Of a stretch of DNA of 29,256 nucleotides, positions 2,478 to 6,239 are shown piece after piece; the stretch's first letter is position 1; each line of letters begins with the position of its first letter. The DNA is from Ruminococcus sp. (lineage in GTDB: Bacteria; Bacillota; Clostridia; Oscillospirales; Ruminococcaceae): NCBI GenBank assembly GCA_003446315.1, contig DMBA01000064.1, forward strand, positions 274 through 29,529. Reading direction: 5' to 3'. The translations under genes were made by a program, and so were the position numbers. The notes under the pieces are model-generated. The model saw only the letters and a list, made by a program, of their open reading frames with translations. It did no database searches and was not told where the DNA came from.

Positions 2478-4751
2478 TCAATACAGCCAATTCGAGGCGA
2501 ACGTGTCTGCAAACGGATCCTTATTCTGAGGCAGTGCAAATACAGAGGTCTGGAGAACAGAGAGGTCTGTTTTGGACGGGATGCCGTATACCATCTGATC
2601 GAAATACTGCACCATGTATTTGACATCTTCTTCGATGACTGCATGACCTTGCAGATGCACATTGATCGCAATGTGATCGCTCAGATCCATATAATCAAAG
2701 ACATGCTTTGCACCGAGATATGCCATCCACTGAGAAGGTGCATTGACCCAGTTTTCATTCTGGCAGGAGCAGATCATGAACAGATAACGGTTCGGATCAC
2801 AGCACAGCGATGCAAGCATATGCTGATCGACCGGGAACTGGTCTTCCGAACGGAATTCCATGAAGCGGCCGTTAAACCAGCCCTGCTCGCCGCTTGCCTG
2901 AAGACTGCCCAGCGGTTCATTGGAATCATAGGTATAACGGGAAGAACCGCCCTTGCTGGAGAAGTCATAGGTCTTGCCCTCGGACTTGTAACGATACAGC
3001 GCCAATCCGCCCGCACCGGAGCAGGAAGGTGCACACATCTTGATCCGTCTTTCAAAAGCACCGCAGACCGCAGTCGCCTTGCCGTATCTCGAAACGCCCG
3101 TTACAATAGAACTGTCCGGGTTGATGTTCAGCTCCTTTGCAGCACCTGCATAGAGTGCATCCAGGATCTTGCTGATGCCCCATGACCATGCAAGCAGGTC
3201 ACCGGTCTGTTCTTCCCACGATCTGCCGTAAGGATAAAGATCATAGAATGCGCCGACATGCTGGTTGTTATCAGCAGCCGTTCCCGGTGCCGAGAATACA
3301 CCGTCACAATCATAGGTGATGACCGCATATCCATTCTGTGTTGCCGTGCCTTCCGAAATGGATTTGTGCATGCCCAGAATGACAGGCGCTCCGCCCTCAT
3401 GCCGCACGCTGCCCGGCAGGCTGATGACAGTATTAAAGGATGCTGTCTTGCCGGTGCTCTTGCGCTTCACCGTGATCTTCATCGAGTTGCCTTTGATCGA
3501 ATAACTGACTTCATCATCTGAGCCGTCACGCCAGACACCGTACATATAATATTCATACATACAGCGGATCTCTGCCTGCCGTCTCCACCAGTCTTCCTGA
3601 CTCTTGACCTGACTGCCGTCCGCAAAAATAAACGGATCCGGAATTGCTTTGTTCGCTTGCAATTGGCTGACCGGTTTGAAATCATAGGAACGCGGATATT
3701 CCGTCGGCCCGGTGATCTCCGGCCCGTCATATTCGCCCTTTTCAAACCGTTTGACTTTGCCGGTCAGATATTCAGACATCATCCCGGCATCCAATGCATT
3801 GACAGCGCCGCTTTCATTCACGTCGCCGTAAGTTTTGAAGGATTTGGACGTATCTTCTGCACGAATGCCCTGTTTCAGCATCGTCAGATCTTTGGCTGTC
3901 ACTGCATCGTCACCATCCAGATCGCCGATTACGGGGCCATCCGGAATGATGATCGGTTCAGGAACGGAAGGCGTTTCGCCGTTCAGATACGGCGTCAGTA
4001 TTTCAGCCCAGTATCTGCCCATTTTCTCATAACCCTTTTCATTCGGATGGACAGAATCGCCCAAATCTGTTGATGCGTCGATCGTGCTGTGGATATCAGC
4101 AAAAATCACGTTTTTGCCCTTACCTGCATATTCATTTGCAACCTTTTTCACTATCTCGTTATAAGACGCGATGTTCGCATTGCTGCTGCCCCATCCTGTG
4201 TCGCCCATATCCGGAATCGTTGTAAAGAAAATTGCACCGTTTGCGGGCATATTTGCCAGCAAATAATCCAGCAGCGTGTGCAGCCGTTCCTCCGAGCCGT
4301 CCAGATACCCGAAGGTCACATCGTTGGTACCAATCTGGAGCAAAATGATATCCGGCGAATAGGTTCTGATGTAATCGCCGCCCTGCATTGTCTCCAGAAT
4401 GCCATGCAAACCGCCGAACCAGCCGCCTGACTGATCCATGATCGCATATCCGCTGTATCCGGCATGATTGTCGTCATAAGTTACGGTTTTGCCCTGATAA
4501 GTGAAGGATGCGCTGTCGCTTCCTTCCGGGCCGACAAAATCTACATTTGTAAAGCCTTTCTGATCCAGAAAATAATCGAGATATTTTCTGTATCCGCCGT
4601 CATCGCCCATACCGAATGTGATGGAATCTCCAAGCGGCATGATCTTGACAGCACCGTTTGCTGCCGCAGCAGTACCGGAACCGGTGGGCAGCATCGTCGC
4701 AAACAGCATCATCGCTGCTGCAACGGATGTGATTCTTTGTTTTAGTTTCAT
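2478..4751 (-). CDS. Cellulosomal CE3 esterase - dockerin - CE15 glucuronoyl esterase
   Basis: A 757-residue secreted, bifunctional xylan esterase. Residues 1-31 are a signal peptide. Residues 35-257 are an SGNH hydrolase of the CE3 acetylxylan esterase type: GDSIT (nucleophile S43), GTND at 141-144, and D232-x-x-H235 as the catalytic acid/base pair. A Pro-rich linker leads to an internal dockerin at 276-334, with loops beginning at D277 and D310. Residues about 352-725 are a CE15 domain with the nucleophile in GVSRYGK (S554) and probable catalytic histidine H703 in LQGH. The first domain would remove acetyl groups from xylan. The second would cut ester bonds between lignin alcohols and 4-O-methylglucuronate. 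The dockerin would anchor both to a scaffoldin cohesin. From memory this order matches R. flavefaciens CesA. The start is supported by AGAGG six bases upstream. It is the first gene of an operon with the dockerin-CotH gene. Confidence 0.9.
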   Translation of the reverse strand: MKLKQRITSVAAAMMLFATMLPTGSGTAAAANGAVKIMPLGDSITFGMGDDGGYRKYLDYFLDQKGFTNVDFVGPEGSDSASFTYQGKTVTYDDNHAGYSGYAIMDQSGGWFGGLHGILETMQGGDYIRTYSPDIILLQIGTNDVTFGYLDGSEERLHTLLDYLLANMPANGAIFFTTIPDMGDTGWGSSNANIASYNEIVKKVANEYAGKGKNVIFADIHSTIDASTDLGDSVHPNEKGYEKMGRYWAEILTPYLNGETPSVPEPIIIPDGPVIGDLDGDDAVTAKDLTMLKQGIRAEDTSKSFKTYGDVNESGAVNALDAGMMSEYLTGKVKRFEKGEYDGPEITGPTEYPRSYDFKPVSQLQANKAIPDPFIFADGSQVKSQEDWWRRQAEIRCMYEYYMYGVWRDGSDDEVSYSIKGNSMKITVKRKSTGKTASFNTVISLPGSVRHEGGAPVILGMHKSISEGTATQNGYAVITYDCDGVFSAPGTAADNNQHVGAFYDLYPYGRSWEEQTGDLLAWSWGISKILDALYAGAAKELNINPDSSIVTGVSRYGKATAVCGAFERRIKMCAPSCSGAGGLALYRYKSEGKTYDFSSKGGSSRYTYDSNEPLGSLQASGEQGWFNGRFMEFRSEDQFPVDQHMLASLCCDPNRYLFMICSCQNENWVNAPSQWMAYLGAKHVFDYMDLSDHIAINVHLQGHAVIEEDVKYMVQYFDQMVYGIPSKTDLSVLQTSVFALPQNKDPFADTFASNWLY

Positions 4752-5061
4752 TTCTAACCTCTCACATATTTATTTTTGTTTTTTGTATGTGCGCGGGATT
4801 CTATCTTATTACCCCAATTTCTATTTCCCCCGTGAAATGAAACAAATTGCTCAGAACCGTTTTCAAATCCCCGTTATCAGCCCCCGTTTTTTCGTATTTA
4901 CGCGATTTGCAATCTATCCATTTCTGATATCCGCCGCAAAGGGGAAAACCGCTTTGCCTGCTGCAATGCGGTGCGGCGCACATGAACTGTATGAACTGCT
5001 GAATCACGCATATCTCCGGCGGCAATCCTGAGAATGCCGCTTTGAAGCATATTTTCTGCAT
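4752..5061. other. Long intergenic stretch upstream of the esterase operon, no gene recognised
   Basis: About 310 bases separate the small-RNA terminator from the esterase start. Open frames cross it on both strands, but none has a ribosome binding site or a recognisable protein family. On the minus strand the 5' half can form a GC-rich structure: CCGCCG near 5025 pairs with CGGCGG near 4935, with a GCAAAG/CTTTGC hairpin inside. It could be a structured leader of the esterase mRNA. I found no convincing sigma-A promoter for the operon and no known riboswitch consensus. Confidence 0.4.
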
Positions 5062-5094
5062 AAAAAATGCCGCACAATTCTGCTGTGCGGCATT
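5062..5094 (-). terminator. Intrinsic terminator of the candidate small RNA
   Basis: An 11-bp perfect stem (5066-5076 with 5084-5094, arm TGCCGCACA plus AA) encloses a 7-nt loop. On the minus strand it is followed directly by a run of six T (5067-5062). The plus strand lacks a T-run, so it acts on minus-strand transcripts. Confidence 0.85.
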
Positions 5095-5230
5095 CCGGTT
5101 GGACATACTGACCCATCCTATGTTATCAAAAACAGAAACACCGCAGAATGATTACAACGTGCGTTTCCCCTAAAACAAGAAATCGGTCATGCTTCCCGTG
5201 TATTTTATACTATCAGGATATTTTTTATGC
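5062..5230 (-). ncRNA. Candidate small non-coding RNA, about 169 nt, class unknown
   Basis: The interval is bounded by a perfect sigma-A promoter upstream and a perfect intrinsic terminator downstream, which is the layout of an independent short transcript. The only ATG-initiated frame near the 5' end is 20 codons, begins just ahead of the predicted start site and has no ribosome binding site. Another frame from about 5116 reads through the terminator. The RNA can fold: TGACC (5189-5185) pairs with GGTCA (5113-5109), enclosing an arm formed by GAAAC (5167-5163) and GTTTC (5139-5135), while ATCCT near the 5' end can alternatively pair with AGGAT near 5115. I do not recognise it as 6S, SRP, tmRNA, RNase P or a known riboswitch. 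It could also be a terminated leader of the downstream esterase operon. Confidence 0.6.
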
Positions 5231-5236
5231 ATTTTT

Positions 5237-5265
5237 ATTATAGCACAGCGAACTGCGTTTGTCAA
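5237..5265 (-). promoter_or_regulatory. Perfect consensus sigma-A promoter
   Basis: TTGACA (5265-5260) and TATAAT (5242-5237) are separated by exactly 17 bases, matching the consensus at all twelve positions. The predicted start site is near 5230. No coding sequence follows before the terminator at 5094, so it most likely drives the small RNA. Confidence 0.88.
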
Positions 5266-5396: not shown

Positions 5397-6128
5397 TCAA
5401 TCTGCATCCGTCGGGGGTGCTGTAAAGGAATCCGTCGGGAACGAAAGCCGGCTGAATACTTCGCACGGCGAATCATTCCCGCACTGGCAGGTCTTCTCCG
5501 GCACTGTATACGGATACGCCGGCACCGTGACCGTGACCGGGCGCGTCAGCTCCACCACTGAGAAGATCCCCAGCGTCATCACGACCGTTCTGCGCGGCAT
5601 CGGCGGCTGCATTTCTTCAGCCGGCATCTGCTGCGGAAATGCCGGCGGCATCATGCAAATGCGAGTCTCCAGTGCGATCGGATCCACACACTGACAGCTC
5701 GCTGTCGGCAGATTGACCAGCTCGCAGCATGCATTCGTATCCCCGATGTGCGCACCGCTGCTGAAAAAGGTCTTCGTGTTCGATTCGCTGCCGTATAAGA
5801 TCACGCGCTTGGATGCCTGTGCACAGCCGCGCATCGGTGTCGGCGGTTCGCATCCGCCCGTATAACAAAGCAGCTCCACCCCAAAGGTATATGTGATGTC
5901 AACGGAGTAATACCCGCGATTGAACGGGATCGGCTCCACGGTCAGACAAATGTTGTCGATCGACACGCAGCGCGTCCGGACAGATGTAAACTGCGGCGGA
6001 AGTGCCCCGCCGCCTTCCAGTTGTACCTGTAAATTCGTGATGCAGTCCTTGTCACTACAGCTATCAAATACACGGTCGAGCTTCACCGGAACCGCATTGA
6101 TGCTGTCAGCGTTCGGTAATTCGTTCAT
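5397..6128 (-). CDS. Cys-rich conserved hypothetical protein, possibly spore-associated
   Basis: A soluble 243-residue protein with no signal peptide or membrane segment. The start at 6128 is chosen because AAGGAGG lies about 8 bases upstream; the frame is open 29 codons further but without a ribosome binding site. It has 15 cysteines, including C24 and C29 in FDSCSDKDC, a CC pair and a CQC twice. The N-terminal part carries blocks (NAVPVKLDRVFDSC, FNRGYYSVDITY, KRVILYGSE) that resemble a family of unknown function seen in spore-forming Clostridia. The C-terminal half is Pro/Met-rich, then Thr/Val-rich. It lies 111 bp downstream of spoVAE on the same strand, so expression in the developing spore is plausible. 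The spore link rests on position and remembered similarity, not on a known activity. A Cys-rich, cross-linkable coat or exosporium component is one possibility. Confidence 0.8.
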   Translation of the reverse strand: MNELPNADSINAVPVKLDRVFDSCSDKDCITNLQVQLEGGGALPPQFTSVRTRCVSIDNICLTVEPIPFNRGYYSVDITYTFGVELLCYTGGCEPPTPMRGCAQASKRVILYGSESNTKTFFSSGAHIGDTNACCELVNLPTASCQCVDPIALETRICMMPPAFPQQMPAEEMQPPMPRRTVVMTLGIFSVVELTRPVTVTVPAYPYTVPEKTCQCGNDSPCEVFSRLSFPTDSFTAPPTDAD

Positions 6129-6239
6129 ATGAATTCCTCCTTGGTTGCAGATTCGAGTTCCGTGCCGCAGGATCCTGCGCTGCGCCGGATTGCTCATTGC
6201 AGTATATGCAATCAAACCGGAATTCGTGTACGTTTTTTG

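Follow-up and report, generated by a model that had tools for sequence, protein, structure and literature searches.

The RNA leader encoded on the minus strand at positions 5063 to 5230 of the window (the whole 29,256-nucleotide stretch of Ruminococcus sp. DNA that was analysed) is probably, at roughly a 75% chance, a cis-acting transcription attenuator that controls a cellulosomal esterase gene and belongs to a class of such leaders. In this genus, the class most likely fronts CE15, GDSL, and Cthe_2159/CotH dockerin genes. The assignment draws on features read from sequence, namely promoter, terminator, shared architecture, gene context, covariation in a stem (P1), and recurrent complementarity between an upstream strand and the terminator. 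We infer from these the working of the switch in the cell, a fibre-related signal, and the direction of action.

The terminated leader in the window

The leader is located between a gene of 272 aa and a modular esterase gene. The region has the following features, in the order in which the minus strand is read:

5397..6215, minus strand: upstream gene, 272 aa, no Pfam match
5237..5265, minus strand: sigma-A promoter TTGACA-17-TATAAT with TGn before the -10 (extended -10), scoring 12/12
5063..5230, minus strand: terminated leader RNA of about 165 nt (start inferred from the promoter), from sequence, fold, and covariance-model match
5066..5094, with T run to 5063, minus strand: intrinsic terminator hairpin, from sequence and fold
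4758..4763, minus strand: ribosome-binding site GAGAGG, from sequence
2478..4751, minus strand: GDSL + dockerin + glucuronyl esterase gene, 757 aa, the presumed target, from Pfam

A previous sequence-only reading had described a 12/12 sigma-A promoter, a terminator with an 11-bp stem, about 169 nt of folding RNA between them, and no credible ORF, and all four descriptions held up. The promoter (minus strand, 5265-5237) is the only minus-strand site scoring at least 9/12 between 5237 and the esterase start at 4751. A promoter scan over 5 kb found seven sites of at least 9/12 compared to a shuffle mean of 5.5 (sd 2.0), so only the perfect 12/12 promoter stands out. The terminator (5094-5063) consists of AATGCCGCACA, a 7-nt loop, and TGTGCGGCATT, followed by the T run, and its stem has 11 bp. 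The automated terminator scan did not list this hairpin, although the RNA fold shows it; G-U pairing into the T run is the suspected reason.

The 172-nt RNA has a folding energy of -53.9 kcal/mol (z -4.56). For the 138-nt stretch ending where the terminator stem begins, z falls to -1.74 and 13 of 200 shuffles are equally good, indicating that much of the folding excess comes from the terminator. Two ORFs (101 and 72 aa) run out through the leader terminator, and tblastn of both in the fetched loci of relatives gave a best E value of 0.24. A coding reading of the leader was dropped because neither terminator-crossing ORF had relatives in these loci.

The neighbouring genes had been described as a spore-type gene and a cellulosomal operon. 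The adjoining 272-aa gene has no Pfam match, and a spore-type gene, SpoVAD, is present one gene further; the gene downstream, at 4751-2478, is by Pfam GDSL + dockerin + glucuronyl esterase. Using the window SpoVAD, 56 loci were collected, mostly from Ruminococcus or Oscillospiraceae, and the genomes of 19 of the 56 were searched with the region. DNA-level relatives of the 272-aa gene were found in all of these (19/19 related genomes searched). In the three genomes where relatives of both the leader and the 272-aa gene were located (G006, G016, and G018), they were on different contigs, which indicates that the leader RNA does not travel with its upstream neighbour.

The leader family and the genes behind it

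Conservation in relatives, which had been proposed as a check on the RNA, was found in a sample of 30 genomes of one genus (Ruminococcus-like gut bacteria). BLAST in these genomes and alignment gave nine sequences including the window. They share a promoter type, an invariant core GGGGAAACGCRC...GCGGUGUUUC (also given as GGGGAAACGC...GCGGUGUUUC), and a terminator that starts with GCCGC. A covariance model built from the nine scored strongly (E <1e-5) once per genome in 16 of the 30, eight of which had supplied training sequences. The model match to the window leader covers 5061-5196 (E 3e-23). G018 has a second, weaker copy (E 8e-5), and in G015 and G001 there are divergent, weakly scoring copies, identified from their promoter, GGGG element, and terminator. 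The full set comprised 34 leaders, with duplicates (G015, G001) counted once and G018_X added by hand; as extracted, G021_A and G005_A start about 25 nt too early and G015_C starts too late (wrong -10), and all three were counted.

Searches were extended to 396 genomes of the family. A strict core pattern was found in two of them, both of this genus, and in no viral contig; the pattern is too strict for divergent leaders and did not pick up those of G002 and G004, both within the 396-genome sample. The covariance model R2, used with strict filters, matched four of the 396 genomes at E 1e-4 or better. Two of these were G018 and G006, and the two matches outside the genus were read as a coding region and a lone terminator. 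R2 thus gave nothing credible outside the genus among the 396; its sensitivity was low, and a negative from a scan that also missed G002 and G004 carries little weight. Inspection by eye of five genes from genomes not in the genus sample, four of CE15 type (L228-L231) and one of GDSL type (L239), showed no such leader.

For all 17 model matches below E 1e-4 in the 30 genomes, the next same-strand gene is a dockerin gene, assigned by Pfam, by the dockerin motif read in translation, or by a match to the window esterase. The downstream genes encode a CE15-like glucuronyl esterase, a GDSL esterase, or a Cthe_2159/CotH protein, all with dockerin. Pfam analysis of four examples and the window gave the architectures glucuronyl esterase + dockerin, GDSL + dockerin + glucuronyl esterase, GDSL + dockerin, and dockerin + Cthe_2159 + CotH.

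The sequence-only reading had been titled as an orphan, independent small RNA, and the 17/17 association with dockerin genes does not support that view. A related explanation, a trans-acting sRNA gene that keeps its place next to dockerin genes while its targets are other messages, is rather improbable. The strong promoter and terminator of its own, the likely stability of the free RNA, and the conserved core would all suit such a gene, and a free 5'-UTR far exceeding its mRNA is reported in C. cellulolyticum (PMC5815224). It is opposed by the same 17 of 17 matches in front of dockerin genes, by the finding that paralogous dockerin genes at separate loci have their own leader, and by the lack of any other minus-strand promoter of at least 9/12 for the esterase. 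For the second proposal of the sequence-only reading, that of a terminated leader in control of the esterase gene, support comes from the dockerin context (17/17), P1 covariation, and antiterminator complementarity. Termination at this leader may well yield a free RNA of about 165 nt. It had also been asked whether the RNA is part of a known leader or mRNA; it does appear to be part of a leader, although not one identifiable as known.

Relatives of the window esterase occur in 29 of the 30 genomes at E 1e-20 or better, and its CE15 part occurs in 17. A terminated leader precedes every one of the 16 readable CE15-dockerin genes (18 including the window; the CE15 genes of G007 and G011, at contig edges, are outside the 16). 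The same is true for 12 of the 13 closest GDSL-dockerin genes, and the leaderless thirteenth, in G023, comes after CE15 and CotH genes. Among the CotH/Cthe_2159-dockerin genes found, six are directly behind a leader and 14 directly behind CE15. Eleven other readable paralogues include seven with a fourth, distinct type of terminated leader and four without (L270, L271, L275, and L278). Thirteen stretches were considered for these paralogues (L272 was too short and L273 had no gene start found), and paralogues G025:C37 and G030:C223, at contig edges, are outside the count.

Some variation was observed around these genes. In three leaderless paralogues (L270, L271, and L278), a TTGACA promoter and, close to the start codon, a G-rich element are retained but no terminated hairpin part is present, as if the attenuator had been lost or not gained. 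The fourth-type leaders (L274, L276, L277, L279, L280, L281, and L284) have an AGGG element and a GCCGU terminator. In the window (2478-4751) and in G026, a single gene combines the GDSL, dockerin, and glucuronyl esterase modules. Other genomes, for example G018, carry them as separate genes at different loci, and each of these genes has a leader of its own (loci compared with the window: L152, L143, and L208).

The G018 genome has 129 dockerin matches, and a leader was found before only three of 52 readable dockerin genes (CE15, GDSL, and CotH/Cthe_2159). For this count, 57 dockerin matches were entered, of which 56 were within stretches, four were edge-cut, and 52 were readable; seven genes were flagged, and four of them were judged chance patterns by eye. 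R2 applied to 402 kb (the window and the G018 stretches) gave the window and two of the three G018 leaders below 1e-4, and it missed the GDSL-type leader of G018. The leaders most likely mark a small sub-regulon of CE15, GDSL, and CotH/Cthe_2159 dockerin genes, as their gene context suggests.

Leader architecture and predicted antitermination

The leaders share an architecture in which a closing stem, P1, frames a GGGG-bearing hairpin. In the window, its parts and two elements downstream of it are:

5180..5192, minus strand: P1, 5' strand, from fold and covariation
5167..5175, minus strand: UUUUAGGGG element, its GGGG invariant in the nine sequences of alignments A1/A3
5158..5167, minus strand: P2, 5' strand (GAAACGCACG), from alignment and fold
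5135..5146, minus strand: P2, 3' strand (CTGCGGTGTTTC), the proposed antiterminator strand, best partner of the terminator 5' arm
5103..5118, minus strand: P1, 3' strand, from fold and covariation
5083..5098, minus strand: antiterminator target, pre-terminator plus terminator 5' arm (CCGGAATGCCGCACAG), duplex -18.0 kcal/mol
4795..4839, minus strand: second G-rich element and small hairpin between terminator and gene, by eye beside other leaders

Six of seven P1 pairs changed on both sides among the 17 sequences of alignment A4, which was fitted to structure and leans towards P1. In the sequence-only alignment of nine sequences, the covariation score of 0.122 was reached by six of 500 shuffles, and it dropped to 0.046 or less once the partners were slid. 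Two of five measures were unremarkable in this alignment (both-side changes, 30/500; further pair types, 208/500). MAFFT mis-registers P1 in three of the nine rows of A3 (window, L080, and L092), so the sequence-only test is conservative.

P2 is nearly invariant in the first-found sequences and quite different in the GDSL-type leaders; in these, inspection by eye shows the GGGG element bordered by CAGG/CCUG and CGCC/GGCG pairs. Across leader types, the GGGG element recurs, little else is fixed, and there is no Rfam riboswitch match. With so few fixed bases, a protein or RNA partner at GGGG fits at least as well as a small-molecule aptamer. It is doubtful that the leaders are a new riboswitch class sensing an esterase-freed product via P1/GGGG/P2, in which the second G-rich element, close to the ribosome-binding site, would add another point of control. 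If they were, the ligand could be, for example, a glucuronoxylan or lignin-carbohydrate fragment, and one cellulosome sub-regulon would be governed by direct RNA sensing of plant-fibre composition.

In the attenuator that we propose, the strong sigma-A promoter would start leader transcription, and the nascent RNA would fold a P1-P2 domain with the GGGG element. P2 would hold the antiterminator strand, allowing the terminator hairpin to form, and RNA polymerase would stop after about 165 nt and release a short RNA. When P2 is unformed or opened by a signal, its 3' strand would pair with the terminator 5' arm, the terminator would not form, and the esterase gene would be transcribed. In the window and relatives, an intrinsic terminator is located between promoter and gene, as in known attenuators, and mutually exclusive antiterminator pairing is present as a sequence prediction only. 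The proposed scheme resembles terminator/antiterminator riboswitches and attenuators in that an upstream strand pairs either within its own domain or with the terminator 5' arm; it differs in that no known aptamer or leader-peptide class in Rfam matches the present leader.

Antiterminator complementarity was assessed by seeking the best upstream-RNA partner of the terminator 5' arm in each leader. The window duplex (-18.0 kcal/mol) was equalled by four of 100 shuffles, and with a shorter target the duplex energy was -16.8 kcal/mol (z -2.3). In 28 leaders (six of the 34 were omitted because the finder did not locate the terminator), the mean energy was -17.1 kcal/mol and the mean z -2.44, with 17 of 28 below -2. 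As control, 57 terminators at gene ends in G018 were treated in the same way; their mean z was -0.05, and three of 57 fell below -2 (Mann-Whitney 3e-10 for leaders vs gene-end terminators, inflated because the leaders are related and the significance thus overstated). The best partner lies 18-59 nt after GGGG in 27 of 28 leaders; the remaining one has an extra upstream GGGG and fits from the second. Judged by folds, and not base by base in every leader, this partner corresponds to the 3' strand of P2; G026 is the one exception, its partner being the 3' strand of P1.

When all 34 leaders were included (the G012_A target being set by hand), the mean z was -2.1 and 17 were below -2; four leaders (G030_A, G006_A, G012_A, and G015_C) had no excess complementarity (z -0.5 to +0.2). 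In a 34-leader swap, the terminator arm paired with its own leader on average 2.5 kcal/mol better than with other leaders; among near relatives, the strands of other leaders often pair as well as the own strand, and the swap says little there. Seven fourth-type leaders had not been used in forming the idea, and their corresponding strand also pairs (z -1.1 to -3.7, with targets anchored on a motif read by eye). Pairing is weak in three of these seven, where 12 of 100 shuffles do as well.

Compared with the upstream fold by itself, forcing the antiterminator changed the energy by -11.9 to +11.7 kcal/mol, with +1.6 for the window. The antiterminator was present in the nascent minimum-energy fold of 10 of the 34 leaders (none of its 16 pairs in the window), and the terminator won in all 34 folds when it was present as a whole. 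These modelled energetics fit a switch decided during transcription, without proving one. A fixed damper, in which a strong promoter and a leaky constitutive terminator set a low, unregulated level and P1-P2 only protects the RNA, seems unlikely. The terminator does win in 34/34 full-length folds, and no signal or partner is known; against it stand the repeated finding that one upstream strand is complementary to terminator arms whose sequences differ, and the conserved P1-P2 domain and GGGG element.

Known RNA families and published leaders

Comparison with Rfam gave no family for the window at gathering score and only chance-level matches at E up to 10, in agreement with the earlier statement that the RNA matches no recognised class. 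The leader family is absent from Rfam 15. That the leader belongs to a familiar group (6S RNA, a CsrA-controlled leader, or a BglG/LicT-type antiterminator) is very improbable. The rod-like fold, similar length, and own promoter resemble 6S RNA, the GGA motifs are reminiscent of sites for CsrA, and sugar genes often use BglG-type antitermination. However, 6S RNA (RF00013) had no match in the window and is located separately, at other places, in 28 of the 30 genomes (22 over the family cut-off), whereas the present RNA is tied to dockerin genes. CsrA (PF02599) and CAT_RBD (PF03123, BglG/LicT-type antiterminator protein) were matched in 0/30 genomes of the genus, in which control profiles matched. 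ANTAR-controlled leaders are characterised by tandem hairpins with defined hexaloops.

The closest published case is the xyl-doc 5'-UTR of Clostridium papyrosolvens, which is reported to block transcription of dockerin genes, with the block seen in a reporter and relieved by corn stover (PMC5815224). In C. cellulolyticum, free 5'-UTR RNA is reported to be far more abundant than the RNA of the downstream genes (PMC5815224). The xyl-doc 5'-UTR is likened here by description, not by sequence: the published leader is long and structured, has termination-type hairpins and a proposed alternative fold, and precedes dockerin genes, and the present leaders are likewise structured, terminated leaders before dockerin genes. 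The xyl-doc leader is found in other bacteria and in a hemicellulase cluster behind a two-component system, whereas the present leaders are tied to CE15, GDSL, and CotH/Cthe_2159 dockerin genes. By analogy, the present leader would work like the xyl-doc 5'-UTR. Among the papers listed by literature searches, none concerned the present leaders.

How gut cellulosome bacteria choose among their many dockerin proteins (129 matches in one relative) is poorly known. The leader class would provide a directly testable RNA switch for a small dockerin sub-regulon. Alongside the clostridial xyl-doc leader, it would also be a second case, defined by sequence, and this hints that attenuation may recur in the control of cellulosome composition. 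More generally, an apparent orphan sRNA gene can be a rapidly evolving leader outside Rfam coverage.

The region between terminator and gene was compared across leaders. A conserved short peptide was considered here by eye and dropped, as some frames were alike and starts and frames disagreed. An SD-like AGGAGG-type motif is present between terminator and gene in 20 of 33 leaders. SD-like AAGGAGG is commonly upstream of the second G-rich element and starts no consistent ORF. The second G-rich element itself, often C/U-AGGGGG-A followed by a small hairpin, recurs in relatives between terminator and start codon.
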